Shown: piece by piece, positions 19,313-42,586 of the stretch
Layout: each line of letters begins with the position of its first letter
Position numbering within the stretch: the first letter of the stretch is position 1
NCBI RefSeq assembly: GCF_016862935.1
Contig: NZ_BONX01000073.1
Location: 1 to 48,988, forward strand
DNA: 48,988 nucleotides
Source of the DNA: Plantactinospora mayteni
Lineage (GTDB): Bacteria > Actinomycetota > Actinomycetes > Mycobacteriales > Micromonosporaceae
Reading direction: 5' to 3'
Made by a program: the position numbers and the translations under genes
The notes under the pieces: model-generated
Database searches by the model: none
The model's input: only the letters and a program-made list of their open reading frames with translations
What the model was told of the DNA's origin: nothing

Positions 19313-22300
19313 TCAGATCAGGTTGAGTTCGCGGGCCCGGCGTACGGCGTCCCGGCGCCGGGTGGCGTCGAGCTTGCGGTAGATGTTCCGGACGTGCGTC
19401 TTGACGGTGTTGACCGAGAGCGACAGCTCCGCCGCGATCTCCACATTGGACAGGATGCTCTGTAGGTAGCGGAGCACGGTCAGCTCCCGCTCGGTCAGCG
19501 GCTCACCCGGTGGTGCCGCCGACGACATCGCCGGTCCGGCCGCCCCGTCGGCGGCGTCGAGCAACTCCCGCACCATCGGCCAGTACGCCGTACCCGAGTC
19601 GAGGTGGGCGGCGAGCAGGTCCCGTACCGGCGGATCAGCCCGGGTGAAGACCTGCCGGAAGCCCTCTGGTTCGGCCAACCGCAGCACGTGTTCCAGCACC
19701 CGGGCGGCGCGGCGGTGGTCGCCGGTCAGCCGGGCCGCGCTCGCGTCGAGCAGTCCGGCCGCCAGCCGCAGCGGAAGCGGTCCACCAGCCCCGGCCGGCG
19801 CCTCCCAGTCCGGCAGCGTACGCAGGGCGGCCTGCGGATCCCGCGCCCGCAGGTGGGCCCGGGACAGCGCCACCGCCAGCGGCTCGACCGGGGCCGTTCC
19901 GCGCTCCAGTGCCGGGGTCAGCATCTCCCTGGCCAGCTCCACGTCGCCGTGGTCGATCCACAGCTCCGCCTCGGCGGCGAGCAGCCAGTGCGCCAGTGGC
20001 TGCGCCTCCGCCCGATCGCCGAGGCGGCGCCGGCTGCCCGCCAGCACCTGGTGTGCACCGGTCAGGTCGCCCCGGTCACGCAGCAGTCGAGCCTGGATCA
20101 CGCCGACCAGACCGTGCACGAGCGGCTCGTCGACGTACTCGGCGGCCCGGACGCCGAGCGCCAGGTTGGCGTCCGCGTCGTCCGGCCGGTCCCGGTACAG
20201 CGCGACGAGCGCCTGCGCGAGACAGCCGTGTACGCCGTCCGCCGGCCGGACCAGCCCGCCGAAGGGTGCCGCGCCGAGTGCCGCGCGGGCGGCCTCGTCC
20301 GCGCTGGTCAGCTCGCCCCGGATCGCCCGGGTCAGGGCCAACCTGCCCAGGCACAGCCGACGGACCCGGGACAGCCCCGCCCGGGTCGCCTCGGCCAGCC
20401 CGTCGGCGATCTCCGGCTCGGCAGCGGTCGGCTCGCCCGTCCCGAACCGGATCGTCCCGGGCACCATCCTGGCCACCACGCTCGCCCGGAGTTCGAGATC
20501 GCTCCGGCCGGAGTCCCCGCCGTCGACCAGGTCGACCCCGAGCCGCCCCAGGTCGGGCGGACCCCCCAGCCCCGAGTCGGGCGGATCCCCCAGCCCGGAG
20601 TCGGGCGGGCCAGCCCAGCCCGCTGCACCCAGCTCAGCTCGGCCCGCACCGAGGAGGTCGGTCCGGGCGGGGTCGGACAGGTCAGGGTGGCCGGGGTGGC
20701 CGGGGTCGAGCAGGGTGAGCCGGCCCAGGTCGATTCGGTCGGCGTCCAGATAGGCGTCGACCTCGACGCCCACGACCGGACCACCGTCGACGCCCACGAC
20801 CGGGCCACCGTCGACGCTCAGCTTCGGGCCCGGGTCGCCGCCCAGTCCCGTGACCGCGTCGGCGGTCACCTCCGGGACGCCGGAGTGGATGTCCGGCGGA
20901 TCCGGTCGGAGAAGGTCGGCGACACCGGCGCGTACCGCCGGTTCGTCCCCGGCCGACTGGGCGACGGCCAGCCGCAGGGCCGCCGCGATCCGCCGGAACC
21001 GGTGCCGGCCGGCGGCGTCGAGCAGGTCGGTGTGCTCGGCGGCGAGCGCGAGATAGCCGGTGGCGGCGGCCGGCTCGCCCCCGTCCAGCCGATCGGCGGC
21101 ACAGGCCAGGCCGAGTTCGGGGTCGGCCCGGACCACCTCCGGGGACGGTGCCGGCGGCGCCGGCCGGGTCGGGGCGTACTGGCCGTAGGGGACGAGGTCG
21201 GGCCAGTGCCGCAGCAGCACTCCGGTCGCGTACGGCCAGTCGTGGGCGGCGAGCGCGTGCCGGAGCGCCTCGGCCGGCAGGTCGTGCGCGGTGAGCCAGG
21301 TGGCGGCTCTGCGGTGCAGCTCGGCCACCTGCTCGGCGGGGCGACGCGCCAACTCGGACCGGAGCAGTTCGCCGAGCATCGGATGGCACCGGTATCCCGC
21401 CGGCCGGCCGCCGAGCGGGATCACGAACCCGCCGAGACGGTCCAGTTCGGACAGTACCCGGGCCGCGTCGGTCCGCCCGGTCAGCGTGTCCAGCAGCTCG
21501 GCGGAGAAGCCCGCCACCAGCGATGCCCGGCAGAGCATCTCCCGGGCGTCGCCGGACAGCTCGGCGAGCAGTTCCTCGGTCAGATAGTCGCCGACATCCG
21601 GATACTCGCCGGTGAACTCCTCGACGAAGCGGGCCGGGTCGGGGTGGCCCGGCAGGGCGAGCGCAGCGAACCGCAGGCCGGCGGGCCAGCCCTCGGTACG
21701 GCCCACCAGCCCGCGGACCTGCTCGGGCGGCAGCGGCTCCCCGTACGCGGAGAAGAGGTCGGCGACCTCGTCGGGGCGGAACGCCAGGTCGGTGGCGCGG
21801 ATCTCGGTCAACTCCCCGCTGAGCCGCCAGCGGTGCAGGGCGAGCCCCGGGTCGGTACGGCAGCCGATCACCAGCCGCAGCCGTCCCGCCGTGTGCCGGA
21901 GCAGGAACTCCAGCCCACTGGAGACCTCCGGGTCGTCCACCTGGTGCAGATCGTCCAGGATCAGCGTCGCCGGCCCGGTACGCCGAGCCAGCTGGTCGGC
22001 GAGGGATTCCAGCCCGTACGCCGGATCCGGTTCGTCCCCGGCATCCGGTTCCGGGCCGTCGACGGCCGGCCGCAGCGCGGCGTACAGGTATGACCAGAGC
22101 CGTGCGCCGCCGTCACCCGGCTCCAGCGAGAGCCAGCCCACCGGGCCCCGGTCCGGGCTCTGTCCGGCCCGGCCGTCCGTCGCGTTACGGGCCCGGTACC
22201 AGGAACTCAGCAGCACCGTCTTGCCCCAGCCGGCCGAGGCCGAGACCAGGGTCAGCGGCCCGGCCGTACCGAGGTCGAGCAGCTCGAACAGCCGGGGTCG

Positions 22301-22450
22301 GGGCAGCAGCACCGCCCCGGAGCGCGGCGCGGCGGTCAGCTTCGCGGTGAGCAGCGGCGGCGGACGCCCGGCCCCGCCGTCCGGGCCGGCGGCTGCCCCG
22401 GCGGTGGCCGGCGCCACCGTTCCGGCGAGTAGTTCCTCGATCCGTTCCAT
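19313..22450 (-). CDS. LuxR-family large ATP-binding regulator (LAL/MalT-like)
   Basis: About 1045 residues. A STAND NTPase domain begins with the Walker A 'VSASAGWGKTVLLSSW' (about 72-87) and the Walker B-like 'ATLILDDLHQVDDPEV' (about 162-177). A winged-helix and TPR-like superhelix fill the middle, with a repeat-rich insertion (about 540-640). The C-terminus is a LuxR HTH ('PLTERELTVLRYLQS', 'LSVNTVKTHVRNIYRKL'). MalT-type proteins bind an inducer and ATP, oligomerise, then activate transcription. The target is unknown; neighbouring secreted enzymes are candidates only by position. The ATG at 22450 lies 13 bases from GGAGGAGG; a TTG at 22456 has better spacing (7) and may be the true start. 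Confidence 0.92.
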   Translation of the reverse strand: MERIEELLAGTVAPATAGAAAGPDGGAGRPPPLLTAKLTAAPRSGAVLLPRPRLFELLDLGTAGPLTLVSASAGWGKTVLLSSWYRARNATDGRAGQSPDRGPVGWLSLEPGDGGARLWSYLYAALRPAVDGPEPDAGDEPDPAYGLESLADQLARRTGPATLILDDLHQVDDPEVSSGLEFLLRHTAGRLRLVIGCRTDPGLALHRWRLSGELTEIRATDLAFRPDEVADLFSAYGEPLPPEQVRGLVGRTEGWPAGLRFAALALPGHPDPARFVEEFTGEYPDVGDYLTEELLAELSGDAREMLCRASLVAGFSAELLDTLTGRTDAARVLSELDRLGGFVIPLGGRPAGYRCHPMLGELLRSELARRPAEQVAELHRRAATWLTAHDLPAEALRHALAAHDWPYATGVLLRHWPDLVPYGQYAPTRPAPPAPSPEVVRADPELGLACAADRLDGGEPAAATGYLALAAEHTDLLDAAGRHRFRRIAAALRLAVAQSAGDEPAVRAGVADLLRPDPPDIHSGVPEVTADAVTGLGGDPGPKLSVDGGPVVGVDGGPVVGVEVDAYLDADRIDLGRLTLLDPGHPGHPDLSDPARTDLLGAGRAELGAAGWAGPPDSGLGDPPDSGLGGPPDLGRLGVDLVDGGDSGRSDLELRASVVARMVPGTIRFGTGEPTAAEPEIADGLAEATRAGLSRVRRLCLGRLALTRAIRGELTSADEAARAALGAAPFGGLVRPADGVHGCLAQALVALYRDRPDDADANLALGVRAAEYVDEPLVHGLVGVIQARLLRDRGDLTGAHQVLAGSRRRLGDRAEAQPLAHWLLAAEAELWIDHGDVELAREMLTPALERGTAPVEPLAVALSRAHLRARDPQAALRTLPDWEAPAGAGGPLPLRLAAGLLDASAARLTGDHRRAARVLEHVLRLAEPEGFRQVFTRADPPVRDLLAAHLDSGTAYWPMVRELLDAADGAAGPAMSSAAPPGEPLTERELTVLRYLQSILSNVEIAAELSLSVNTVKTHVRNIYRKLDATRRRDAVRRARELNLI
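20549..20620 (-). repeat. 24-bp in-frame tandem repeat in the LAL regulator (1)
   Basis: Three units (20549-20572, 20573-20596 and a diverged 20597-20620) encode GPPDSGLG-type octapeptides in the central insertion. Confidence 0.75.
20762..20822 (-). repeat. 24-bp in-frame tandem repeat in the LAL regulator (2)
   Basis: Units at 20762-20785 and 20786-20809 plus a partial third encode VDGGPVVG octapeptides. This array is separate from the one 140 bp away and unrelated in sequence. Confidence 0.75.
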
Positions 22451-22586
22451 CGACAACGCCCCACCTCCTCCGGCCCGCCGGATACGACGGTCCGAGGCGG
22501 ATACCCGGCCCGCAGCGGTTCACCCCTTGCGGACGAGCCTGGTTCACCCGGCACCGCCGGGCGATTCCGAGCCGGCGACACGACGC

Positions 22587-22613
22587 GGGCCCGGCGCGCT
22601 GGTCGCCGGGCCC
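22587..22613 (-). terminator. Hairpin after the trypsin-like protease gene
   Basis: GGGCCCGGCG (22587-22596) pairs with CGCCGGGCCC (22604-22613), a 10-bp perfect stem with a 7-nt loop, about 28 bases past the stop. Confidence 0.7.
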
Positions 22614-22640
22614 GGGTGGGGGTCTTCGGAAGCGGGTCGG

Positions 22641-23459
22641 TCAGGACGGCAGGCCGCCGACCTGGGTGTTGATCCAGGCCCGGATCGAGGGCAGGTCGCC
22701 GTAGATGGACGGGCCGGTCGCGCAGGTCGGGTTGTTGTTGCCCGCCCGGCTGGTCGCGCCGATCAGGTTCCACCGGCCGTCGATGCTGCGCACCTGCGGG
22801 CCACCGGAGTCGCCGTAGCAGGCGCCGGCGTTGCCGTTCGTGTTGTTGGTGCAGATCTCGTACGTCGCGTTGATGCCGGAGCACCGGCTGTCGGCCACGA
22901 TCGAGGTGTCCAGTTCGTTGGCGACGGTCGGCGCCGAGCCGCAGCCCCGGGTCGGGCAGGTCTGCCCCCAGCCGATGATCCGGGTCGCCGTGCCGACCGC
23001 CCCGGAGGCGCTCGGGATGACGGCGGGGGCGTGGCTCACCGAACTGCCGAGCTGGAAGAGCTTCACGTCGATGGAGGGGTGGTTCACCGCGCGTACCACA
23101 CTGACGACGGTGCCGCCGCTGGTGCGGTTGACGCTGCCCACCCGTACCGAACTCGGTGTCGGGCAGTGCTTGGCGGTGACCACCCAGTCGGCCTTGATCA
23201 ACGAGGCCGAGCAGCCCGAGGTGTAGACCAGGAACGAGTAGTTCTCCGACGCCGGCCGGCCGTTCACCACCAGCGTACCGACGCCGCCGTCGCCGTCGGT
23301 GGCCTCGGGTGCGGGCGCGTCGGACGTCTCGGGCACGTTCGCGTACCCGGTCGAGGGCGCCGCCGAGGCGACGGCCGGCAGGGACAGGCCGGCGGCGACC
23401 AGCGCGGCCACCAGGCACGTGCGGCGGACGAGCACGCGCGCCGGGTGTGGTCGGGACAT
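22641..23459 (-). CDS. Secreted trypsin-like serine protease (S1)
   Basis: 272 residues. A signal peptide (1-33, ends AVASA) and a short pro-segment precede the chymotrypsin-fold domain. The triad is visible: His in 'WVVTAKHCPTP', Asp in 'HPSIDVKLFQL', Ser in 'GACYGDSGGPQV'. Cys pairs surround the His and Ser loops. The usual mature N-terminus IVGG is replaced by 'LVVNGRPAS', so zymogen activation through a new N-terminus may differ from the classical case. It is extracellular and divergent from the MerR-clamp gene, with which it shares the short promoter region 23460-23557. Confidence 0.92.
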   Translation of the reverse strand: MSRPHPARVLVRRTCLVAALVAAGLSLPAVASAAPSTGYANVPETSDAPAPEATDGDGGVGTLVVNGRPASENYSFLVYTSGCSASLIKADWVVTAKHCPTPSSVRVGSVNRTSGGTVVSVVRAVNHPSIDVKLFQLGSSVSHAPAVIPSASGAVGTATRIIGWGQTCPTRGCGSAPTVANELDTSIVADSRCSGINATYEICTNNTNGNAGACYGDSGGPQVRSIDGRWNLIGATSRAGNNNPTCATGPSIYGDLPSIRAWINTQVGGLPS

Positions 23460-23557: not shown

Positions 23558-24760
23558 ATGCGCCGGGCGGATCGGCGCAGCGGGTTGACCCTCGACCTGG
23601 TCGAGGGGGCAGAATGCCTGCTCGTGGACGGGGGTGGCCGACTTCTCGGCATCGGCGAGATGGCCCGGGCGAGCGGCCTGAGCATCAGCGCGCTGCGCTT
23701 CTACGACGGTGCCGGCGTGCTGGCACCCGCGTCCGTGGACCCGGGCACCGGTTACCGCCGGTATGCCGAGCGGCAGCTACCGGCCGCCCGCCTGCTGGCC
23801 GGCCTGCGCCGGATCGGGATGCCACTGGCCGAGATCACCCGGGTACTGGAGTTGCGCGGCTCGGACCCGTCCGCCGTGTCGCGGCTGCTGGACGCGCACC
23901 TGCGCCGCCTGGAGGAGGGGCTCGCCGACGCCCGCCGGGAGGCGGCCCGGCTCCGGGTACTCTGCACCGCCGCCGAGCCATCGGCCGAGCCGTCCACCGA
24001 GCCGGAGGGCCGGCTGACCGTACCCGGGCGGGAGCTGGCGGCAGCGGTCGACGCCGTCCGGTTCGCGGCCGGGGCGGACCCCGGGCTGCCGATGCTCGGC
24101 GGTGTGCACTTCGAGATCGACCGGGACGTGCTCCGGCTGGTCGCCACCGACCGGTACCGGATGGCCGTCTCCGAGGTCGCCGGGGACCCGGACCACCGTT
24201 GCGAGGGCGGGGCGGCGTCCGGGCACTCCCGGGTGACCGTGCCGGTCTCGTTCGTCGACGCGGCCCGGGCCCTGCTGACCGGCGGCTGGCCGGCCACCCT
24301 CACCCTCGGATCCGCCGCCGTCGGCCTGCGGGTGCGGGACCGCCGGGTCACCGGTACCCCGATGCAGCACGACTTTCCGGACTACCACCGGTTGCTACGG
24401 ACCGCGACCGGCGGGCCGGACCGCCGCCGGGTGACCGTCGACGTGGCCGGGTTACGCGAGCGACTGACCGCCGCCGAGACCCGGACTGTGGTACGCGCCG
24501 ACGACGGAGCCCGCTGCGCGGTCAGCGTCCTCGCGGTCGACGCCACGAACCGGCTGACCGTCTCCCCCGCCGACGCCCCGGCCGCGCCGACCGATCCGGT
24601 GGTGCGGGTCGGAGTCAACCGGGAGTTCCTGCTCGACGCCCTGGACGCGGTCGGGCCGGGCCAACTGGTACTCGAACTCGACGGGCCGATCCGCCCACTG
24701 GCGGTACGCCGGCTCGACGACGACCGCGCCTTCTCCATCCTGATGCCGGTACGGGTCTGA
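23558..24760 (+). CDS. MerR HTH fused to DNA polymerase III sliding-clamp domains II and III
   Basis: 400 residues. Residues about 28-98 are a MerR winged HTH ('LLGIGEMARASGLSISALRF', 'GYRRYAERQL') followed by the MerR dimerisation helix (to about 132). Residues about 150-400 match beta-clamp (DnaN) domains II and III: 'LPMLGGVHFEID..VLRLVATDRYRMAV', 'DFPDYHRLL', then 'VGVNREFLLDAL' and the C-terminus 'FSILMPVRV'. Clamp domain I is absent, replaced by the DNA-binding part. Residues lining the clamp's peptide-binding cleft (ATD-R, FPDY, LMP) are kept. It probably regulates transcription, with clamp-binding proteins as possible ligands; that is inference. The start at 23558 has no clear ribosome site; a GTG at 23624 is an alternative. 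Confidence 0.9.
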   Translation: MRRADRRSGLTLDLVEGAECLLVDGGGRLLGIGEMARASGLSISALRFYDGAGVLAPASVDPGTGYRRYAERQLPAARLLAGLRRIGMPLAEITRVLELRGSDPSAVSRLLDAHLRRLEEGLADARREAARLRVLCTAAEPSAEPSTEPEGRLTVPGRELAAAVDAVRFAAGADPGLPMLGGVHFEIDRDVLRLVATDRYRMAVSEVAGDPDHRCEGGAASGHSRVTVPVSFVDAARALLTGGWPATLTLGSAAVGLRVRDRRVTGTPMQHDFPDYHRLLRTATGGPDRRRVTVDVAGLRERLTAAETRTVVRADDGARCAVSVLAVDATNRLTVSPADAPAAPTDPVVRVGVNREFLLDALDAVGPGQLVLELDGPIRPLAVRRLDDDRAFSILMPVRV

Positions 24761-24937: not shown

Positions 24938-25894
24938 ATGGCTTTTGTCCGCTTCAACCCGATTGCCTCGGGGCGGGCACGTCGCCGGACCGGTGCCGCG
25001 CTGGCCGTACTCGGTGGGGCGCTCGTGCTGGCGGTGGTGGTGGTCAACGACGCGCCCGGGCCACGGCGGACGGCCGACCGGCCACCAGCGGCGGACCAGC
25101 TCCTGCCGCCCCCGGCCGCCCCGCACCCGACGCCGAGCGCCGAGCCGACGCTGCCGGCGGCGCCACCCCCGGCCGACCTGCCGGTGGTCGACTACGGTCC
25201 GGCCCCGCGCGGCTTTCCCCGGGACCCGACTCCGATGTCGACGGTACGGCTCGGCGAGGGCCTCCGGCCGATCCGCCGGGTCGCCGCGTACGACGCGCCG
25301 GGCGGCCGGCCCCGGGCCCTCCTCGCGCCGACCATCAGCGGAGTGCCGGTGACCATGCCGATCGTGGCGCGCCGGGCCGGCTGGGTCGCCGTGCTGCTCC
25401 CGTCGGCGAACCGGACCATCGGCTGGGTGCCACCCGGGCCGTGGAGCACCACGGAACTGCGCGACCTGGTCGTGGTGGTCCGGCGGACCCACCGACTGCA
25501 CTGGTACCGGGACGACCGGCTGGTCCGGTCCTGGCCGGTCAGCGTCGGCACCTCGGCCACCCCGACCCCGCTGGGCCGGACGTTCATCCTCGGCCGCTCG
25601 ACCCTGCCCGGCCGGGTGTACGCGGACACCGAGGTCTTCGCGCTCGGCGCCGTACCCGACGAACCGAACTCGGTACCGTCCGGGCTGCGCGGCGCGCACA
25701 TCGGACTGCACGCCTGGTACGACGCCCGCCAACTCGGCCGCGACAACAGCAACGGCTGCATCCGGATAGCCCGGAAGGCGCAGGAACTGCTGCTCGCCGA
25801 GTTGCCGCCCGGCACCGAACTGCTGGTACTCGACCGGTTCTCCGCACCCGAGCGGCTCTCCGGGGTGGGCCCGGTCCCGGTCGCGGCCCGCTGA
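24938..25894 (+). CDS. L,D-transpeptidase (YkuD domain), membrane-anchored
   Basis: 318 residues. One TM anchor (about 19-36) is followed by a Pro/Ala-rich spacer (about 40-88), an SH3-like segment (about 100-165, 'VARRAGWVAVLLPSANRTIGWV') and a YkuD catalytic domain (about 172-305). The active-site motif is 'HAWYDARQLGRDNSNGCIRI' with nucleophile Cys274, and the preceding His is present. Enzymes of this kind form 3-3 peptidoglycan cross-links or attach proteins to the wall. The ATG at 24938 lacks a strong ribosome site. The stop codon sits in a 23-bp tandem repeat. Confidence 0.9.
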   Translation: MAFVRFNPIASGRARRRTGAALAVLGGALVLAVVVVNDAPGPRRTADRPPAADQLLPPPAAPHPTPSAEPTLPAAPPPADLPVVDYGPAPRGFPRDPTPMSTVRLGEGLRPIRRVAAYDAPGGRPRALLAPTISGVPVTMPIVARRAGWVAVLLPSANRTIGWVPPGPWSTTELRDLVVVVRRTHRLHWYRDDRLVRSWPVSVGTSATPTPLGRTFILGRSTLPGRVYADTEVFALGAVPDEPNSVPSGLRGAHIGLHAWYDARQLGRDNSNGCIRIARKAQELLLAELPPGTELLVLDRFSAPERLSGVGPVPVAAR

Positions 25895-25949
25895 CCACTC
25901 CGATCGCGGCCCGCTGACCACTCCGATCGCAGCCTGCTGACCACTTCGG
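25881..25949 (+). repeat. 23-bp tandem repeat across the L,D-transpeptidase stop
   Basis: Two identical copies (25881-25903, 25904-25926) of TCGCGGCCCGCTGACCACTCCGA and a third diverged copy (25927-25949). The TGA that ends the gene is in the first copy and is duplicated in the others. Confidence 0.8.
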
Positions 25950-26080
25950 ACGGTGGCACCCGAGTGACCCGCCGGGATCGGCCGGTCGCGCCGCCCGGAT
26001 CGGCCGGTCACGCTGTCGGTCCCGTGTTAGGCTCCGCCGTCCTTTGGATGGCTGACCGAGACACCGGAACGGGGAACGGG

Positions 26081-26887
26081 ATGACTCGGATGCACCGTGG
26101 CGGTGCCGTACTGGCTGCCGCCGTCACCCTAGTCGTGCTGACCGCCTGCCAGAGCCTCGGCGGAGGAGGCGGTTCCGAGGCAGCGCCTCCGGAACCGGCG
26201 GCGATGCGGGGCGCGGCCGAGGCGGTCAAACAGGCCAGGACGCTGGGCGTCACCTTCAAGACCAAGCAGATCGACGGTACGGTGTTCGGCGGGACCATCA
26301 CCGGTCAGGCCCAGGTGGTGGCCGGGGGCGGGATGGCGGTGGCCTGGAGCCACCGTACGAACAGCGGCCCGGACGAGACCAAGACCATCGACGGTCGGCT
26401 GATTGCCGTCGACGGCGCGGCGTACCTGACCTCGTCGCGGTGGAAGCTACCGCCGGGCAAGAAGTGGTTCTCGATCCCACCGGGTTGGCGTGCCAAGCTG
26501 GACCAGCCGATCGCGCCCGAGTGGTTCGTACTGGTGATGTCGCGACTGCTCGACCCGCTGTTCCTGCTCGGCCAGGGCCTACCCGAGGCGACCGGTCTGA
26601 CGACCACCCCGGCGCCGGGCGAGCCCGAGGGCACCACGGGTTACACCGTGGACTGGAACTTCTCGCAGGACACCGCCGGGCCGGAGATGACCGCGTGGGC
26701 GAAGCAGGTGGGCGAGGCGCTCGTGCTGGATGTCTCGGTCTATCTGGACGGGAGCGGCCGGCCGGTACGGCTGGAGGCCGAGTCCTCCACCCAACTGATG
26801 CTCTTCGACGCCGAGGTCAGCGTCGAGAGCTACGGCACTCCGGCCGAGGTCGCCCCGCCGGATCCGGCCCAGGTCAAGAAGCTCTGA
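26081..26887 (+). CDS. LppX/LprG-like lipoprotein
   Basis: 268 residues. Signal peptide with lipobox 'VVLTACQSLG' (Cys about residue 23), then a Gly-rich linker and a mature domain with 'GVTFKTKQIDGTVFGGTITGQAQV', 'DGAAYLTSS' and 'VDVSVYLDGSGRPVRLE'-type strands. This is the half-barrel pattern of actinobacterial LppX/LprG-like or related lipid-carrier lipoproteins. It is anchored on the outer face of the membrane. The ATG at 26081 follows GGAACGGGGAACGGG; a second ATG at 26090 is possible. The specific ligand is unknown. It probably has its own promoter in the gap after the 23-bp repeat. Confidence 0.75.
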   Translation: MTRMHRGGAVLAAAVTLVVLTACQSLGGGGGSEAAPPEPAAMRGAAEAVKQARTLGVTFKTKQIDGTVFGGTITGQAQVVAGGGMAVAWSHRTNSGPDETKTIDGRLIAVDGAAYLTSSRWKLPPGKKWFSIPPGWRAKLDQPIAPEWFVLVMSRLLDPLFLLGQGLPEATGLTTTPAPGEPEGTTGYTVDWNFSQDTAGPEMTAWAKQVGEALVLDVSVYLDGSGRPVRLEAESSTQLMLFDAEVSVESYGTPAEVAPPDPAQVKKL

Positions 26888-26920
26888 GCCCGGTCCCCGG
26901 ATAACCCTTCGTCGGTCGTG

Positions 26921-27427
26921 CTACAGGTCGCGGCGCATGCAGACCCGGGGCCACCGGTCCAGGCCGTGTGCCGCCTCGCGGGCCCGGATCGCGGCCAGCC
27001 CCGGGGTCAGTTCCCGCTCGTCGAGGACGACAAATCCGCACCGGGAGTAGTACGGCGCGTTCCACGGAACGTCGGTGAAGGTGGTCAGGGTCAGCGCCGG
27101 TACCCCGTCCGCCGTCGCGTACCCGGCGAGGTGCTCGACAAGCTGGCGGCCCACGCCCCGGCGGGCGGCCCGGGGATGCACCGAGACCTGCTCGACGTGC
27201 AGGTTGCCGTCCACCTGCTCGGCGACCAGATAGCCGACCGGCAGGTCGTCGGCGTCGACCGCGACCCAGGCCAGGCCGGCGCGCTGATGCCGGGCCAGCT
27301 CCTCGACGGACGGTGGTTCGTCGTCGGCGACCTCCGGCATCCCGACGTCCCGGAAGGACTGCCCGGCGGCTCGCTCGATCTCCCGCAGCCCGGGCAGGTC
27401 CGCCTGACGGGCCGGTCGGATCCGCAT
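26921..27427 (-). CDS. GNAT-family N-acetyltransferase
   Basis: 168 residues with one GNAT domain. 'LHVEQVSVHPRAARRGVGRQLVEHL' is the acetyl-CoA binding motif (V-x-P-x-x-R-x-x-G-x-G). 'DVPWNAPYYSRCGFVVLD' is the C-terminal motif B. The N-terminal 'IRPARQADLPGLREIERAAGQSF' matches RimI-like members. The acceptor (amine, peptide or small molecule) cannot be told. It is convergent with the lipoprotein gene, 33 bp apart. Confidence 0.9.
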   Translation of the reverse strand: MRIRPARQADLPGLREIERAAGQSFRDVGMPEVADDEPPSVEELARHQRAGLAWVAVDADDLPVGYLVAEQVDGNLHVEQVSVHPRAARRGVGRQLVEHLAGYATADGVPALTLTTFTDVPWNAPYYSRCGFVVLDERELTPGLAAIRAREAAHGLDRWPRVCMRRDL

Positions 27428-38469: not shown

Positions 38470-38636
38470 GTCGGCCGCGCCGCAGCACGGCAAGCCGGCA
38501 GCGCCTTAGCAAGCACCGCGAGTCGGCCGCGCCGCAGCACCGCGAGTCGGCCGCGCCGCAGCACGGCAAGCCGGCCGCGCCGCAGCACGGCAAGCCGGCC
38601 GCGCCTCAGTGCGGCAAGCCGGCCGCGCCTCAGTGC
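38468..38636. repeat. 24-bp tandem-repeat array (~7 units) between convergent genes
   Basis: Consensus GGCAAGCCGGCCGCGCCGCAGCAC (24 bp). Units: 38468-38488 (partial), 38489-38516 (diverged, +4), 38517-38540, 38541-38564, 38565-38588, 38589-38612, 38613-38636. Two variants alternate (CGCGAGTCGG... and GGCAAGCCGG...). The last unit provides the stop codon of the prolyl oligopeptidase gene. The frame is open on both strands, but there is no start signal. Confidence 0.9.
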
Positions 38637-40669
38637 GGGGCGTCGGTGAGCCGGCGCCAGAGGAAGCGCAGCATAAGCGCCCACTTGAACGCCAGTTGCG
38701 CGTTGTCGGCGGCGGCACCGTGCCCGCCCTCGATGTTCTCGTAGTAGGAGACGTCGTAGCCGTAGCCGCGCATCCGGGCGGCCATCTTGCGGGCGTGCCC
38801 GGGATGCACCCGGTCGTCCCGGGACGAGGTGACGAGGAGGACCGGCGGATACTCCCGACCCGGCCGGACGTTGTGGTAGGGCGAGTACTCGCGCAGGAAC
38901 GCCCAGTCGGCCTCGTCGTCCGGGTCGCCGTACTCGGCCATCCAGGAGGCGCCGGCCAGCAGCAGGTGGTAGCGGCGCATGTCGAAGAGCGGTACCCGGG
39001 CCACCACCGCGCCGAACAACTCCGGAAACCGGGTCAGCATCACCCCCATCAGCAGCCCGCCGTTGCTGCCGCCCTCGATGCCGAGCCGCGCCGGTATGGT
39101 GATGCCCCGGTCGACCAGGTCGGTCGCCACGGCGGCGAAGTCCTCGTACGCCCGGAGCCGGTTCTCCCGCAGCGCCGCCCGGTGCCAGCGCGGGCCGTAC
39201 TCGCCGCCGCCCCGGATGTTCGCGACCACGTAGCTGCCGCCCCTCGCCAGCCAGCCCCGGCCGATGATCCCGCTGTAGCTCGGCGTCCAGGCCATCTCGA
39301 ACCCGCCGTACCCGGTCAGCAGGGTCGGCCCGGTCGGCTCCCCGGGCGGGCTGACCAGGAAGTACGGCACCCGGGTCCCGTCGGCGGACCGGGCGTGCAG
39401 TTGCCGGACCGCCATCCCGGCCGGGTCGAAGAACGCCGGGTCCCGCTTCAGCGTCTCGGCCGGCCCGCCGACCGTGCCGTGGTGCAGCGCGGTCGGCGTG
39501 AGGAAGCCGGTACTGGCCAGCAGGTATTCGTCGCTGTGCTCCGGGTTGGTGTCGACGATGACGACGTGCCGCTCCTCCTCCGGGCCGACGGTCTCCAGCA
39601 GCGGCGTCCGCCGCCAGCCGTCCGGCCCGGGGGTGAGCACCTCGGTCCGGCTCCGCACGTCGACCAGACTGCTCAGGATCAGGTGCCCCCGGGTCCAGGC
39701 GTGCCGACCGGGCGCGCTCTCCGGACCGGGCGCGAAGACCACGGTCAGATCGCGCTCGCCGGCGAGGAACCGGTCCAGCCGGGTGACCAGCACCGTTCCG
39801 GCGGCGTACGTCCGGTCGCCGATCGCCCAGTCCGAGCGGAGCGCGATCAGCAGCCACTCCCGGTGTACGTCGGTCTCGGCGTCCTCCGGCACGTCGATCC
39901 GGACCAGTTCGCCGTCGACGGTGCGCAGGAACTCCTCCCGACGGAAGAAGTCCAGCCGGCGGCCGAGGAAGTCGCGGACAAAGCCCGGGGTGGGGTCGTG
40001 CACGGCGTACACCGAGACGTCGTCGTCGCGGCCCTGGTGCACGACGGTGGCCTCGGCCAGCGGCGTACCCCGGCGCCAGCGCTTGACGATTCGGGGATAG
40101 CCGGAGGCGGTCAGCGAGCCGGGGCCGAAGTCGGTGCCGACGTAGATGTGGTCGGCGTCGATCCAGCCGACGTCGCTCTTCGCCTCGGGCAGGGTGAAGC
40201 CGTCGGGGACGAAGGCCCGGTCCGTCAGGTCGAACTCGCGGACCACGCTCGCGTCCGAGCCGCCCCGGGCCAGCCGGATCAGGCAGCGCCGGTGCCCGGG
40301 CCGCTGCGCGATCGCGCCCTGCCAGGTCCACGGCTCGCCCTCGGCGGCGGCCAGCGCGTCGACGTCGAGCAGCACCTCCCAGTTCGGCTCCGCCCGGCGA
40401 TATTCGTCGATCGTGGTACGCCGCCACAGCCCCCGGGGATGGCCCTCGTCCTTCCACAGGTTGTAGAGGTAGGTTCCGTCCCAATGCACGAACGGCACTC
40501 GGTCGGCGGCGTCCAGCACCTGGCGCAGTTCGGCGCTCAGCGCGCCGAACGAGGGGTCGTCGGCGAGCGCGTCACGGGTCTCCGCGTTGCGGGCCCGCAC
40601 CCAGGCGGTCACCTCTGTGCTGGAGAGCGCCTCCAGCCAACGGAATTCGTCGTCGAGATCCGGGGACAC
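38630..40669 (-). CDS. Prolyl oligopeptidase family serine peptidase (S9A)
   Basis: 679 residues. N-terminal seven-bladed beta-propeller (about 60-400) and C-terminal alpha/beta-hydrolase domain (about 430-679). Triad: Ser in 'GIEGGSNGGLLMG', Asp in 'LVTSSRDDRVHPGHA', His in 'NIEGGHGAAADN'. 'GSYVVANIRGGGEYGPRWH' is the S9A oxyanion/substrate loop. No signal peptide, so it is cytoplasmic and cleaves short proline-containing peptides. GTG start at 40669. The gene ends inside a 24-bp repeat, which makes its C-terminus a potential target of repeat variation. Confidence 0.93.
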   Translation of the reverse strand: MSPDLDDEFRWLEALSSTEVTAWVRARNAETRDALADDPSFGALSAELRQVLDAADRVPFVHWDGTYLYNLWKDEGHPRGLWRRTTIDEYRRAEPNWEVLLDVDALAAAEGEPWTWQGAIAQRPGHRRCLIRLARGGSDASVVREFDLTDRAFVPDGFTLPEAKSDVGWIDADHIYVGTDFGPGSLTASGYPRIVKRWRRGTPLAEATVVHQGRDDDVSVYAVHDPTPGFVRDFLGRRLDFFRREEFLRTVDGELVRIDVPEDAETDVHREWLLIALRSDWAIGDRTYAAGTVLVTRLDRFLAGERDLTVVFAPGPESAPGRHAWTRGHLILSSLVDVRSRTEVLTPGPDGWRRTPLLETVGPEEERHVVIVDTNPEHSDEYLLASTGFLTPTALHHGTVGGPAETLKRDPAFFDPAGMAVRQLHARSADGTRVPYFLVSPPGEPTGPTLLTGYGGFEMAWTPSYSGIIGRGWLARGGSYVVANIRGGGEYGPRWHRAALRENRLRAYEDFAAVATDLVDRGITIPARLGIEGGSNGGLLMGVMLTRFPELFGAVVARVPLFDMRRYHLLLAGASWMAEYGDPDDEADWAFLREYSPYHNVRPGREYPPVLLVTSSRDDRVHPGHARKMAARMRGYGYDVSYYENIEGGHGAAADNAQLAFKWALMLRFLWRRLTDAPH

Positions 40670-40723
40670 GCAGGGTTCCTACCACAGAACGTGAACAAAA
40701 TTTCCGCTCAGTCGGAAGGCGGA

Positions 40724-40762
40724 TTGAACTTCCCGGCGTCGAAAAACGATCTAACTGAGGTG
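40724..40762 (+). promoter_or_regulatory. Possible promoter giving a leaderless copC-copD transcript
   Basis: TTGAAC (40724-40729), 18 bases, GATCTA (40748-40753) resemble -35 and -10 boxes. The expected transcription start falls on or next to the GTG at 40760, and there is no ribosome site. Confidence 0.35.
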
Positions 40763-42586
40763 GGATCATCTCGACTCCGACCCGTACCGCTGGGGCGGGC
40801 CGCGCTGGCAGTACTCCTCTTCGTCGGGCTGGCGGTGCTGTTCGGCCCGGCGCGACCGGCGGCGGCGCACGCGGCGGTGCTCGGCACGGTGCCGCAGCAG
40901 CAGGCCGTACTCGGCTTCTCGCCCACCGAGGTCACGATCACCTTCAGCGAGCCGGTGGCCCTGGTGGCCGGCCGGGTGCAGGTGCTGGCCCCGGACGGCA
41001 AGCGGATCAACGACGGGGACGCCACCGTCCGGGACGCCACGCTGCGGATCCCGATCCGGGTCGCCGACCGACCGCTCGGGACGTACCTGGTCAGCTATCG
41101 GGTGATCTCCGCCGACAGCCATCCGGTCGCCGGCAGCTACACCTTCTCGGTCGGCGCCGCCTCGGCCACCCCACCCGAGCCGGCCGAGGAGACAGTACGC
41201 CCCGACGTCCGGGTCGCGGTGCCGGTGACCAGATACCTCGGGTACGCCGGACTGGTCCTGCTGGTCGGTCCGACGCTGCTGCTCGGGCTGCTCTGGCCGC
41301 GCCGACTGCCCCGTAGGGGCGCTGTACGGCTGGTCCGGGCCGGTCTGCTGCTGGTCGCGCTCGGCACCCTGGCCGGGTTCTGGGCACAGGCGCCCTACAC
41401 CAGTGGCGCGGGGCTGCTGGACGTCTCCGGCGCCGAGCTGCGGCAGGTGCTCGACTCGGACTTCGGGCTGGCGCTCGCCGCCAGGCTGGGCATCCTGCTG
41501 CTGGTCGCCGCCCTGCTGCCGCCGGTGCTGGCCGGTCGGGCCGGTCGGGTCCGGGTCGGGCTGCTGGTCGCGCTCGGGCTGGCCGGGCTGGCCACCTGGC
41601 CGCTGGCCGGGCACGCCGCCGCCTCGCCGACCCCGCTGGCCAGCGGCATCGCCAGTGTCGTACACCTGGCCGCGATGTCGGTCTGGCTCGGCGGGCTGGT
41701 GGCGATGGTCGGCTTCCCGCTGCGGGCCGCCCATCCCCGGGTGCTGGCGGTGATCCTGCCGGTCTGGTCCCGCTGGGCGACCATCGCGGTGCTCTGGCTG
41801 GTCGCCGGTGGGGTGGTGCAGGCGATGATCGAGATCGGTGCACCGGGTGCGCTCTTCGGCACCGGCTACGGTCGGCTGGTCCTCGCCAAGGTCGCGCTGC
41901 TGGCGCTGCTGCTCGGCGCCGCCGGATACGCCCGCCGCCTGGTCCGCCGCCGCACGACCGCCACCCCCGCGAAGCCGGCAGACAGCGGACAGACGGCAGA
42001 TGGCGGACAGACGGCGGACAACGGACAGCCAGCAGACAGCGGAGAGCCGGCAAACAGCGGACAGACGGCGGACAACGGAGAGCTGGCGGACAGCGGGCAG
42101 CCGGCGGACAGCACGGAGCCGGCGGTCGCCGGGCGGCGGCGGTTGCGCCGTACGGTCGGGCTGGAGGTGCTGGTCGGGCTGGTCGTGCTCGGGGTCAGCT
42201 CGGTGTTGGTGCAGACCACCCCGGGGCGCAACGCCGGGATCGAGGCCGAGATCGCCGCCTCGGACACCTTCGCCCAGACGCTCAGCTCGCCGCTCTACAC
42301 CCTCCAGTTCGACATCTACCCGGTGCAGTTGGGGCCGAACAACACCGTGCACGCGTACGTCTACACCCCGGACGGCAGGCCGCTGCCGGCGGTGGAGTGG
42401 ACGCTGACCGCCGCGCTGCCGGCGCAGGGTGTCGAGCCGACCGACACCCCGATGCTGGGCGTCGAGCCGCACCACGGGGCCGGGGCGGTGAACTTCCCGA
42501 TCCCCGGGGACTGGGAGCTGCGGTTCACGGTACGGCTCTCGGAAATCGACCAGGCCACCGTGCGGACCGTGGTGAGGGTGCGCTGA
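40760..42586 (+). CDS. CopC-CopD fusion copper-resistance protein with C-terminal FixH/YtkA-like domain
   Basis: 608 residues. Signal sequence (about 1-34), cut before the metal-binding His of 'AHAAVLGTVP'. A CopC domain (about 34-135) has the second His site 'DSHPVAGSYTFSVG'. Eight or so TM helices of the CopD domain follow (about 150-400, with 'GHAAASPTPLASGIASVVHLAAMSVWLGGLVAMV'). A hydrophilic loop of eight hexapeptide repeats (about 407-454) leads to another TM and a C-terminal extracytoplasmic beta domain (about 490-608, 'YTLQFDIYPVQLGPNNTVHAYV'). It takes up or buffers copper across the membrane. The GTG start is inferred from the signal sequence. Confidence 0.88.
   Translation: MGSSRLRPVPLGRAALAVLLFVGLAVLFGPARPAAAHAAVLGTVPQQQAVLGFSPTEVTITFSEPVALVAGRVQVLAPDGKRINDGDATVRDATLRIPIRVADRPLGTYLVSYRVISADSHPVAGSYTFSVGAASATPPEPAEETVRPDVRVAVPVTRYLGYAGLVLLVGPTLLLGLLWPRRLPRRGAVRLVRAGLLLVALGTLAGFWAQAPYTSGAGLLDVSGAELRQVLDSDFGLALAARLGILLLVAALLPPVLAGRAGRVRVGLLVALGLAGLATWPLAGHAAASPTPLASGIASVVHLAAMSVWLGGLVAMVGFPLRAAHPRVLAVILPVWSRWATIAVLWLVAGGVVQAMIEIGAPGALFGTGYGRLVLAKVALLALLLGAAGYARRLVRRRTTATPAKPADSGQTADGGQTADNGQPADSGEPANSGQTADNGELADSGQPADSTEPAVAGRRRLRRTVGLEVLVGLVVLGVSSVLVQTTPGRNAGIEAEIAASDTFAQTLSSPLYTLQFDIYPVQLGPNNTVHAYVYTPDGRPLPAVEWTLTAALPAQGVEPTDTPMLGVEPHHGAGAVNFPIPGDWELRFTVRLSEIDQATVRTVVRVR
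41978..42121 (+). repeat. Eight in-frame 18-bp repeats in copC-copD
   Basis: Eight 18-bp units encode hexapeptides ADSGQT, ADGGQT, ADNGQP, ADSGEP, ANSGQT, ADNGEL, ADSGQP, ADSTEP in a loop between TM helices. Confidence 0.85.

Follow-up and report, generated by a model that had tools for sequence, protein, structure and literature searches.

What use does a transcription factor have for part of a replication clamp? The question arises from an uninterrupted open reading frame of 400 aa (23558-24760, + strand) in a 48,988-nucleotide stretch of Plantactinospora mayteni DNA, hereafter the window. A preliminary description had read this frame as a MerR helix-turn-helix and dimer helix followed by domains II and III of the sliding clamp DnaN, without domain I. 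Pfam, TIGR00663 and PDB matches all agree with that reading. The profile search that had been proposed returned MerR_1 above the cut-off, with the winged helix-turn-helix in the N-terminal position usual for MerR transcription factors, followed by DNA_pol3_beta_2 and by DNA_pol3_beta_3, the last of which lies, taken alone, below the Pfam cut-off. The protein and its parts are placed as follows:

23624..24760, + strand: MerR-clamp fusion regulator (likely start GTG 23624, 378 aa; the listed ORF begins at ATG 23558)
23651..23851, + strand: MerR winged helix-turn-helix (residues 32-98 of the 400-aa ORF; Pfam MerR_1, 5e-11)
23855..23977, + strand: likely MerR dimerisation helix (residues about 100-140, placed as is usual in MerR proteins; the sequence alignment with MerR regulators of solved structure reaches residue 139)
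24020..24382, + strand: sliding-clamp domain II (residues 155-275; Pfam DNA_pol3_beta_2, 1.4e-14)
24383..24754, + strand: sliding-clamp domain III (residues 276-399; TIGR00663 to position 366 of 367, Pfam DNA_pol3_beta_3, 0.0021)

The NCBIfam dnaN profile (TIGR00663) matched residues 145-399 with 2.6e-22 and aligned them with profile positions 119-366 of 367, so that domains II and III are present and domain I is missing. Its score of 79 bits falls short of the equivalog cut-off of 138, and the fusion is therefore not DnaN itself, a clamp with three domains per chain; the canonical dnaN of the 9.84-Mb genome lies on a different contig. The PDB sequence relatives are MerR regulators over the first half and beta clamps over the second. 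PADLOC gave a single weak match within the helix-turn-helix (mad1, 7.4e-7), and an AlphaFold2 model from a two-row alignment was too poor for use (pLDDT 43.9). Around the fusion (19313-23459 and 24938-27427), the window encodes a MalT-like LuxR-type regulator, a trypsin-like protease, an L,D-transpeptidase, a frame without Pfam match and a GNAT acetyltransferase; further away (38609-42586) lies a frame with CopC and CopD copper-resistance domains.

The locus is a genuine fusion of a MerR DNA-binding region and clamp domains II-III in a single chain. The preliminary description had allowed for two genes joined by a sequencing error, which is ruled out because 65 distinct aligned sequences show the same architecture, each in one open frame. 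A survey of its spread, also proposed there, found fusion matches (E 1e-20) in 211 of 300 genomes of the family, in 17 of 44 genera. Beyond the family, too, the class contains fusions that span both halves: among 394 genomes drawn from across the class, 30 had a match over both halves, including the window's own (hand count), and one additional match (G506) was shown in part. A collection scan returned 30 loci, two of which contain the clamp part, namely L038 from Plantactinospora endophytica (87% identity in the alignment, 76% for the best segment in the scan) and L039 from Phytoactinopolyspora (Jiangellaceae). The other 28 (L040-L067) match by the helix-turn-helix half only; six of seven such loci scanned with Pfam are MerR-PP2C fusions (L040, L043, L046, L050, L052, L065), and others of L040-L065 look like MerR-PP2C fusions too.

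We aligned 65 fusions, 51 in group A and 14 in group B, the groups being split by locus number; 12 duplicates, two fragments (L167, L169), a 215-aa frame (L179) and L039, which has masked bases, were left out. Identity to the query is 46-56% in group A (leaving aside the window's own fusion) and 33-38% in group B. A tree of the clamp part places all 65 fusions together in a single clade (support 0.995), separate from 30 DnaN sequences and an E. coli fragment; group A is supported at 0.855 and group B at 0.993. Because they form one clade, the MerR-clamp fusion seems to have arisen once, long ago.

The fusion carries its own control region, which overlaps the start of the listed ORF:

23585..23590, + strand: -35 element TTGACC of the regulator's own promoter (pattern present before 65 of 65 aligned fusions)
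23590..23606, + strand: operator, a perfect inverted repeat CCTCGACC-T-GGTCGAGG within the promoter spacer (read from the sequence; conserved in relatives)
23610..23615, + strand: -10 element CAGAAT (19-bp spacer to the -35 element; start codon 8 nt further)

The inverted repeat (8+1+8, perfect) spans the beginning of the 19-bp spacer between TTGACC and CAGAAT. This is the anatomy of MerR promoters, in which a spacer of 19 or 20 bp contains a palindrome, as excerpts of two papers describe (PMC1526738, PMC11049809). The MerR-type pattern stands upstream of all 65 aligned fusions in groups A and B at up to three substitutions, and the first in-frame start follows the -10 element by 6-8 nt in 60 of 65. 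GTG 23624 stands 8 nt past it, a leaderless geometry. Because this layout is conserved before the fusions, the first 22 codons (66 bases) of the listed ORF are probably operator and promoter and encode no protein; the true start is probably GTG 23624, giving a protein of 378 aa. The 19-bp spacer with its palindrome, together with a start 6-8 nt past the -10 element, indicates autoregulation and a leaderless mRNA. The 22-mer beginning at 23585 occurs once in the window at up to three mismatches, compared with 0 occurrences in 100 shuffles. At two loci (L013, L154), upstream of the fusion in genome G092 and of the MFS gene in the window's genome, the operators are tandem or partly duplicated.

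We then compared the clamp part with DnaN, using as reference 30 sequences from 26 genomes, four of them second copies. Retention was scored at positions conserved in at least 80% of the 30 sequences. The lists of pocket, interface and inner-surface residues follow work on E. coli beta, the ring interface of domain III being the region of R269, I272, L273 and E304 (E. coli numbers). The residues of the cleft are found at:

24146..24163, + strand: cleft residues T197-M202 (E. coli T172-L177)
24377..24394, + strand: cleft residues P274-L279 (E. coli P242-V247)
24737..24754, + strand: cleft residues I394-R399 (E. coli V360-R365, including the gate Met362 and the ligand-contacting Arg365)

The client/drug pocket of DnaN is present in the fusions and its ring interface is mostly lost. 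In group A (51 sequences), the identical residue is retained in 86% of cases at 13 pocket positions, in 9% at 8 interface positions and in 30% at 83 others; the corresponding values in group B (14 sequences) are 78%, 7% and 34%. In group A, the 19 pocket columns have a mean conservation of 0.875, compared with 0.650 for the clamp columns as a whole and 0.540 for the 14 interface columns; none of 20,000 random column sets reached the pocket value. Group B gives 0.769, 0.650 and 0.503 for pocket, all clamp columns and interface. Basic residues of the inner surface at 198 and 205 are mostly lost. The cleft, described as preserved from the outset, thus aligns with the DnaN cleft positions and is the best-kept part of the clamp. 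Given these contrasting retentions of cleft, interface and other positions, the clamp is, as far as sequence can tell, preserved for its pocket and not for its ring. Pocket residues could be kept partly for folding; other conserved positions are less well kept. The PCNA-like six-domain ring by trimerisation, which had earlier seemed conceivable, is not supported by the sequence, with domain I absent and the interface residues of domain III mostly gone. The proposal that the clamp part is the sensor fits MerR anatomy, since the clamp sits in the place of the effector domain and its cleft is best preserved.

Within the pocket, Met362 is present in 65 of 65 fusions. In E. coli DnaN, this residue acts as a gate and Arg365 hydrogen-bonds mycoplanecin A, according to excerpts of PMC10817943. 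Arg365 is present in 92% of group A and in 36% of group B, and Asn320 is retained in no group B fusion, so the two groups perhaps have no ligand in common and that of group B, if any, may differ from that of group A.

To which genes does the operator belong besides the fusion? We scanned 23 fusion-bearing genomes with the operator pattern at up to one mismatch and obtained 64 sites, against 14 for the reversed pattern. Thirty sites were exact, 17 of them the fusion's own, and all 13 others precede genes for TPR-like (8), MFS (4) or YunG-like (1) proteins. One-mismatch sites numbered 34, with 6 at the fusion and 28 elsewhere; among 13 of the 28 that were inspected, 9 precede such genes and 4 precede none of these types (L137, L283, L284, L288), a point against the drug-sensing model given below. 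A stricter pattern, applied to 40 further genomes, matched 35 of them and gave 59 hits, with no hit for the control. We fetched 26 of these, two being the fusion's own and 24 non-self: MFS genes (10), TPR-like genes (6, including L263, read from the other strand), YunG-like genes (3), the dnaN region (4) and a different MerR-type gene with a one-mismatch operator copy (L264, genome G067). Of the 33 hits not fetched, 29 coincide with fusion positions and those in G012, G052, G101 and G060 were not located. The stricter pattern was absent from five of the 40 fusion genomes (G050, G055, G505, G431, G489), and for three loci among them (L159, L162, L163) the looser pattern finds the fusion's promoter. 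With a pattern derived from the promoters of the fusions themselves, 11 of 14 group B genomes had a site at up to one mismatch, one each and all at the fusion. Twenty genomes without a fusion match (1e-20) contained no exact site; at one mismatch, the operator pattern hit 7 sites in them and the reversed pattern 10.

In the window's own genome, an exact site stands at a TPR-like gene (contig C36) and a variant site at an MFS gene (C32) whose ATG lies 6 nt past the -10 element. The window itself contains no second operator at up to three mismatches. The neighbouring trypsin-like protease, L,D-transpeptidase and MalT-like regulator were considered as partners and rejected, the window having one operator only.

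Seven of the MFS genes were verified as MFS_1 above the Pfam cut-off (L125, L134, L131, L257, L262, L281, L285), and one YunG-like protein was verified by a Pfam match of 4.1e-43 (L130); Pfam matches for the TPR-like L119, L126 and L133 were weak and below cut-offs, and the remaining regulon genes were assigned by similarity or by eye. MFS genes stand under the operator in several genera and belong to more than one MFS subgroup. As exporter-type genes, they would supply the transporter that is found in the regulons of MerR drug-sensing regulators, their proteins resembling drug exporters far below curated cut-offs, with EntS (an enterobactin exporter) and phospholipid enzymes listed as well. 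No DNA-repair or SOS gene was found among the regulon sites inspected. The operator common to MFS, TPR-like and YunG-like genes defines a small predicted regulon, which was not visible to the preliminary description.

A survey of homologues for co-conserved neighbours, as had been suggested, placed a TPR-like gene beside the regulator or fused to it, within 1.5 kb, in 12 of 14 group B loci; none was found within 1.5 kb at the other two (L177, L178). In L176 (genome G461), a three-part MerR-clamp-TPR protein joins the regulator to its regulon partner. An MFS-like frame follows the fusion downstream in L039, L165 and L169. Across the family, 145 of 300 genomes have a TPR-like relative: 126 of 211 with a fusion match and 19 of 89 without (hand count). 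At the best 30 TPR-like loci, the operator lies just upstream in 23, and three more are fusion-TPR operons with the operator before the fusion. The other four (L326, L333, L335, L339), from genus g12 with no fusion match, have no operator; near the TPR-like gene of L326 there is a short frame weakly like a group B fusion (2.4e-8). Genome G254 (L331) has the TPR-like gene and the operator and no fusion match, in an assembly of 590 contigs. A clamp-binding motif in the TPR-like protein was considered and set aside; by eye, its QLNL-like string falls inside an apparent TPR helix.

Some operator sites lie near the replication origin. Anchored to a DnaA-box-like sequence, the operator pattern matched 16 of 300 genomes, every one of them from genus g4 and with a fusion match, and the reversed control gave none. 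In all 16, the site stands at the edge of oriC in the interval from dnaA to dnaN; it precedes the dnaN ATG by 688-691 bp, and its distance from the dnaA stop varies (82 to 377). A GTG or ATG stands 5-7 nt past the -10 element in 16 of 16 (L291-L306), opening a frame of 44 to 146 codons that runs into the DnaA-box region and is possibly a leader peptide or due to chance. No such site was found at 30 dnaN loci from 26 other genomes at up to two mismatches; on this comparison the dnaN-side site is a lineage-specific addition, absent before dnaN in the window's genome. The operator would drive dnaN across a gap of 690 bp that spans oriC. The site would connect clamp status with replication control. 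Recruitment of clamp clients to the operator, as the preliminary description had suggested, is possible mainly at this site of some relatives. We regard as doubtful the further idea that a MerR-clamp dimer holds a false clamp at the origin, the occupancy of its pocket by drug or clients setting both origin firing and the supply of dnaN. If true, such an origin-parked clamp would be a feedback from clamp state to initiation, on top of efflux.

From the fusion, the retained pocket, the lost ring interface, the promoter family and the common sites, all of them read directly in the sequences, we infer the binding, the activation and the ligand of the following model, to which we give a probability of roughly 0.5. 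The fusion would be a MerR factor with a clamp relic as its sensor, a target mimic for drugs that act on the DnaN pocket, and it would induce efflux and clamp supply. Its dimers would sit on the 17-bp operator, within a spacer that at 19 bp is over-long. A small molecule shaped for the DnaN pocket, for example a cyclic depsipeptide of the griselimycin/mycoplanecin type, would fill the pocket between domains II and III, the dimer halves would move and the promoter would be twisted into a good substrate for RNA polymerase. The induced cell would then make the pump, the partner and additional sensor, which would itself bind up some of the drug, and probably more DnaN where the oriC-side site exists. 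Inhibitors of the griselimycin/mycoplanecin type are the most likely ligand class. We prefer this drug-sensing model because the regulon corresponds to the needs of a response to a DnaN-pocket inhibitor and because the pocket is the binding place of the drug.

The main rival, which we consider possible but unlikely, is that the pocket responds to clamp-binding proteins of the cell itself (polymerase, repair or translesion proteins with QLxLF-type motifs). Stalled replication would free clients to fill or leave the pocket, and the regulon would tune clamp supply and initiation. Retention of the pocket suits peptides and drugs equally, the operator beside DnaA boxes in 16 genomes keeps a constant distance of 688-691 bp from dnaN, and the TPR-like partner could present a peptide. 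This reading has to contend, however, with the lack of any DNA-repair or SOS gene at the inspected regulon sites, with the recurrence of MFS transporters of more than one subgroup and with a dnaN-side site in only 16 of 300 family genomes. The original proposal that transcription follows replication or repair status therefore takes second place to drug sensing: the sites point to transporters and clamp supply, and to no repair gene.

Alternatively, the TPR-like protein could be the real sensor or switch, binding the clamp part (perhaps through its pocket) and holding the regulator on or off; external signals would reach the system through the TPR-like protein. Proteins are the usual ligands of TPR folds, and both the gene's place beside or within 12 of 14 group B regulators and its link to the operator at 23 of the best 30 loci, with three more in fusion-TPR operons, speak for such a role. 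However, 85 of 211 fusion genomes lack a TPR-like match at the threshold used and one is present in 19 of 89 genomes that have no fusion match (hand count), and we find this explanation improbable. The clamp part might also be a mere dimerisation or structural scaffold, with the ligand bound elsewhere, such as at the junction of the two parts. Since unrelated domains, PP2C among them, are also found attached to MerR proteins of actinobacteria, the fusion alone is no proof of sensing at the original site; that the pocket is conserved in preference to the remainder of the domain nevertheless makes a scaffold very improbable.

The fusion stands near several known systems. With the multidrug regulators BmrR, TipA, EcmrR and BrlR, which appear among the PDB matches, it shares by sequence the helix-turn-helix and dimer helix, as well as an operator in a 19-bp spacer, an own promoter under that operator and transporter genes in the regulon, but its effector domain consists of clamp domains II-III. 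The usual drug-binding domains of such regulators, which we take to be GyrI-like and TipAS, are absent from it. With DnaN (TIGR00663), it shares domains II and III and the client/drug pocket; unlike DnaN, it has no domain I, has lost the interface and the basic inner-surface residues and carries a DNA-binding domain. The MerR-PP2C fusions are alike in joining MerR to a foreign domain and have a close helix-turn-helix half, whereas their added domain is phosphatase-like and their spacer repeat is different, as it was in most of the 26 helix-turn-helix-only loci (L040-L065) whose upstream regions we read by eye. In BlaR1 and MecR1, the sensor derives from the class of the drug's target, as is proposed here; unlike the fusion, they are membrane receptors with a penicillin-binding domain and do not bind DNA directly.

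GriR and MypR, second DnaN copies in the griselimycin and mycoplanecin clusters, are also clamp-derived and tied to DnaN-directed antibiotics, but they are reported as DnaN genes thought to confer self-resistance, according to excerpts of PMC10817943; the word 'MerR' does not occur in its main text. Second dnaN copies in our own genomes (L342 in G113, contig C2; L343 in G010; L344 in G419; L345 in G580) are 49-70% identical to the query DnaN. We considered them as self-resistance genes of antibiotic clusters and set this aside, no cluster or operator being recognised in the 20-kb surroundings of the four in a rough listing of frames, nearly blank for L342.

The literature matches listed contain no description of a MerR-clamp fusion, most subscription journals being outside the scope of the search. 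We know of no earlier transcription factor with a sensor derived from a sliding clamp, and this would be the first known to sense through one. It would also offer a biosensor principle for DnaN-directed antibiotics, which are of current interest against tuberculosis according to excerpts of PMC10817943. With an operator, a regulon and pocket residues all predicted, the idea lends itself to direct tests. If true, it would suggest that actinobacteria meet DnaN-directed compounds in soil often enough to retain a sensor dedicated to them.
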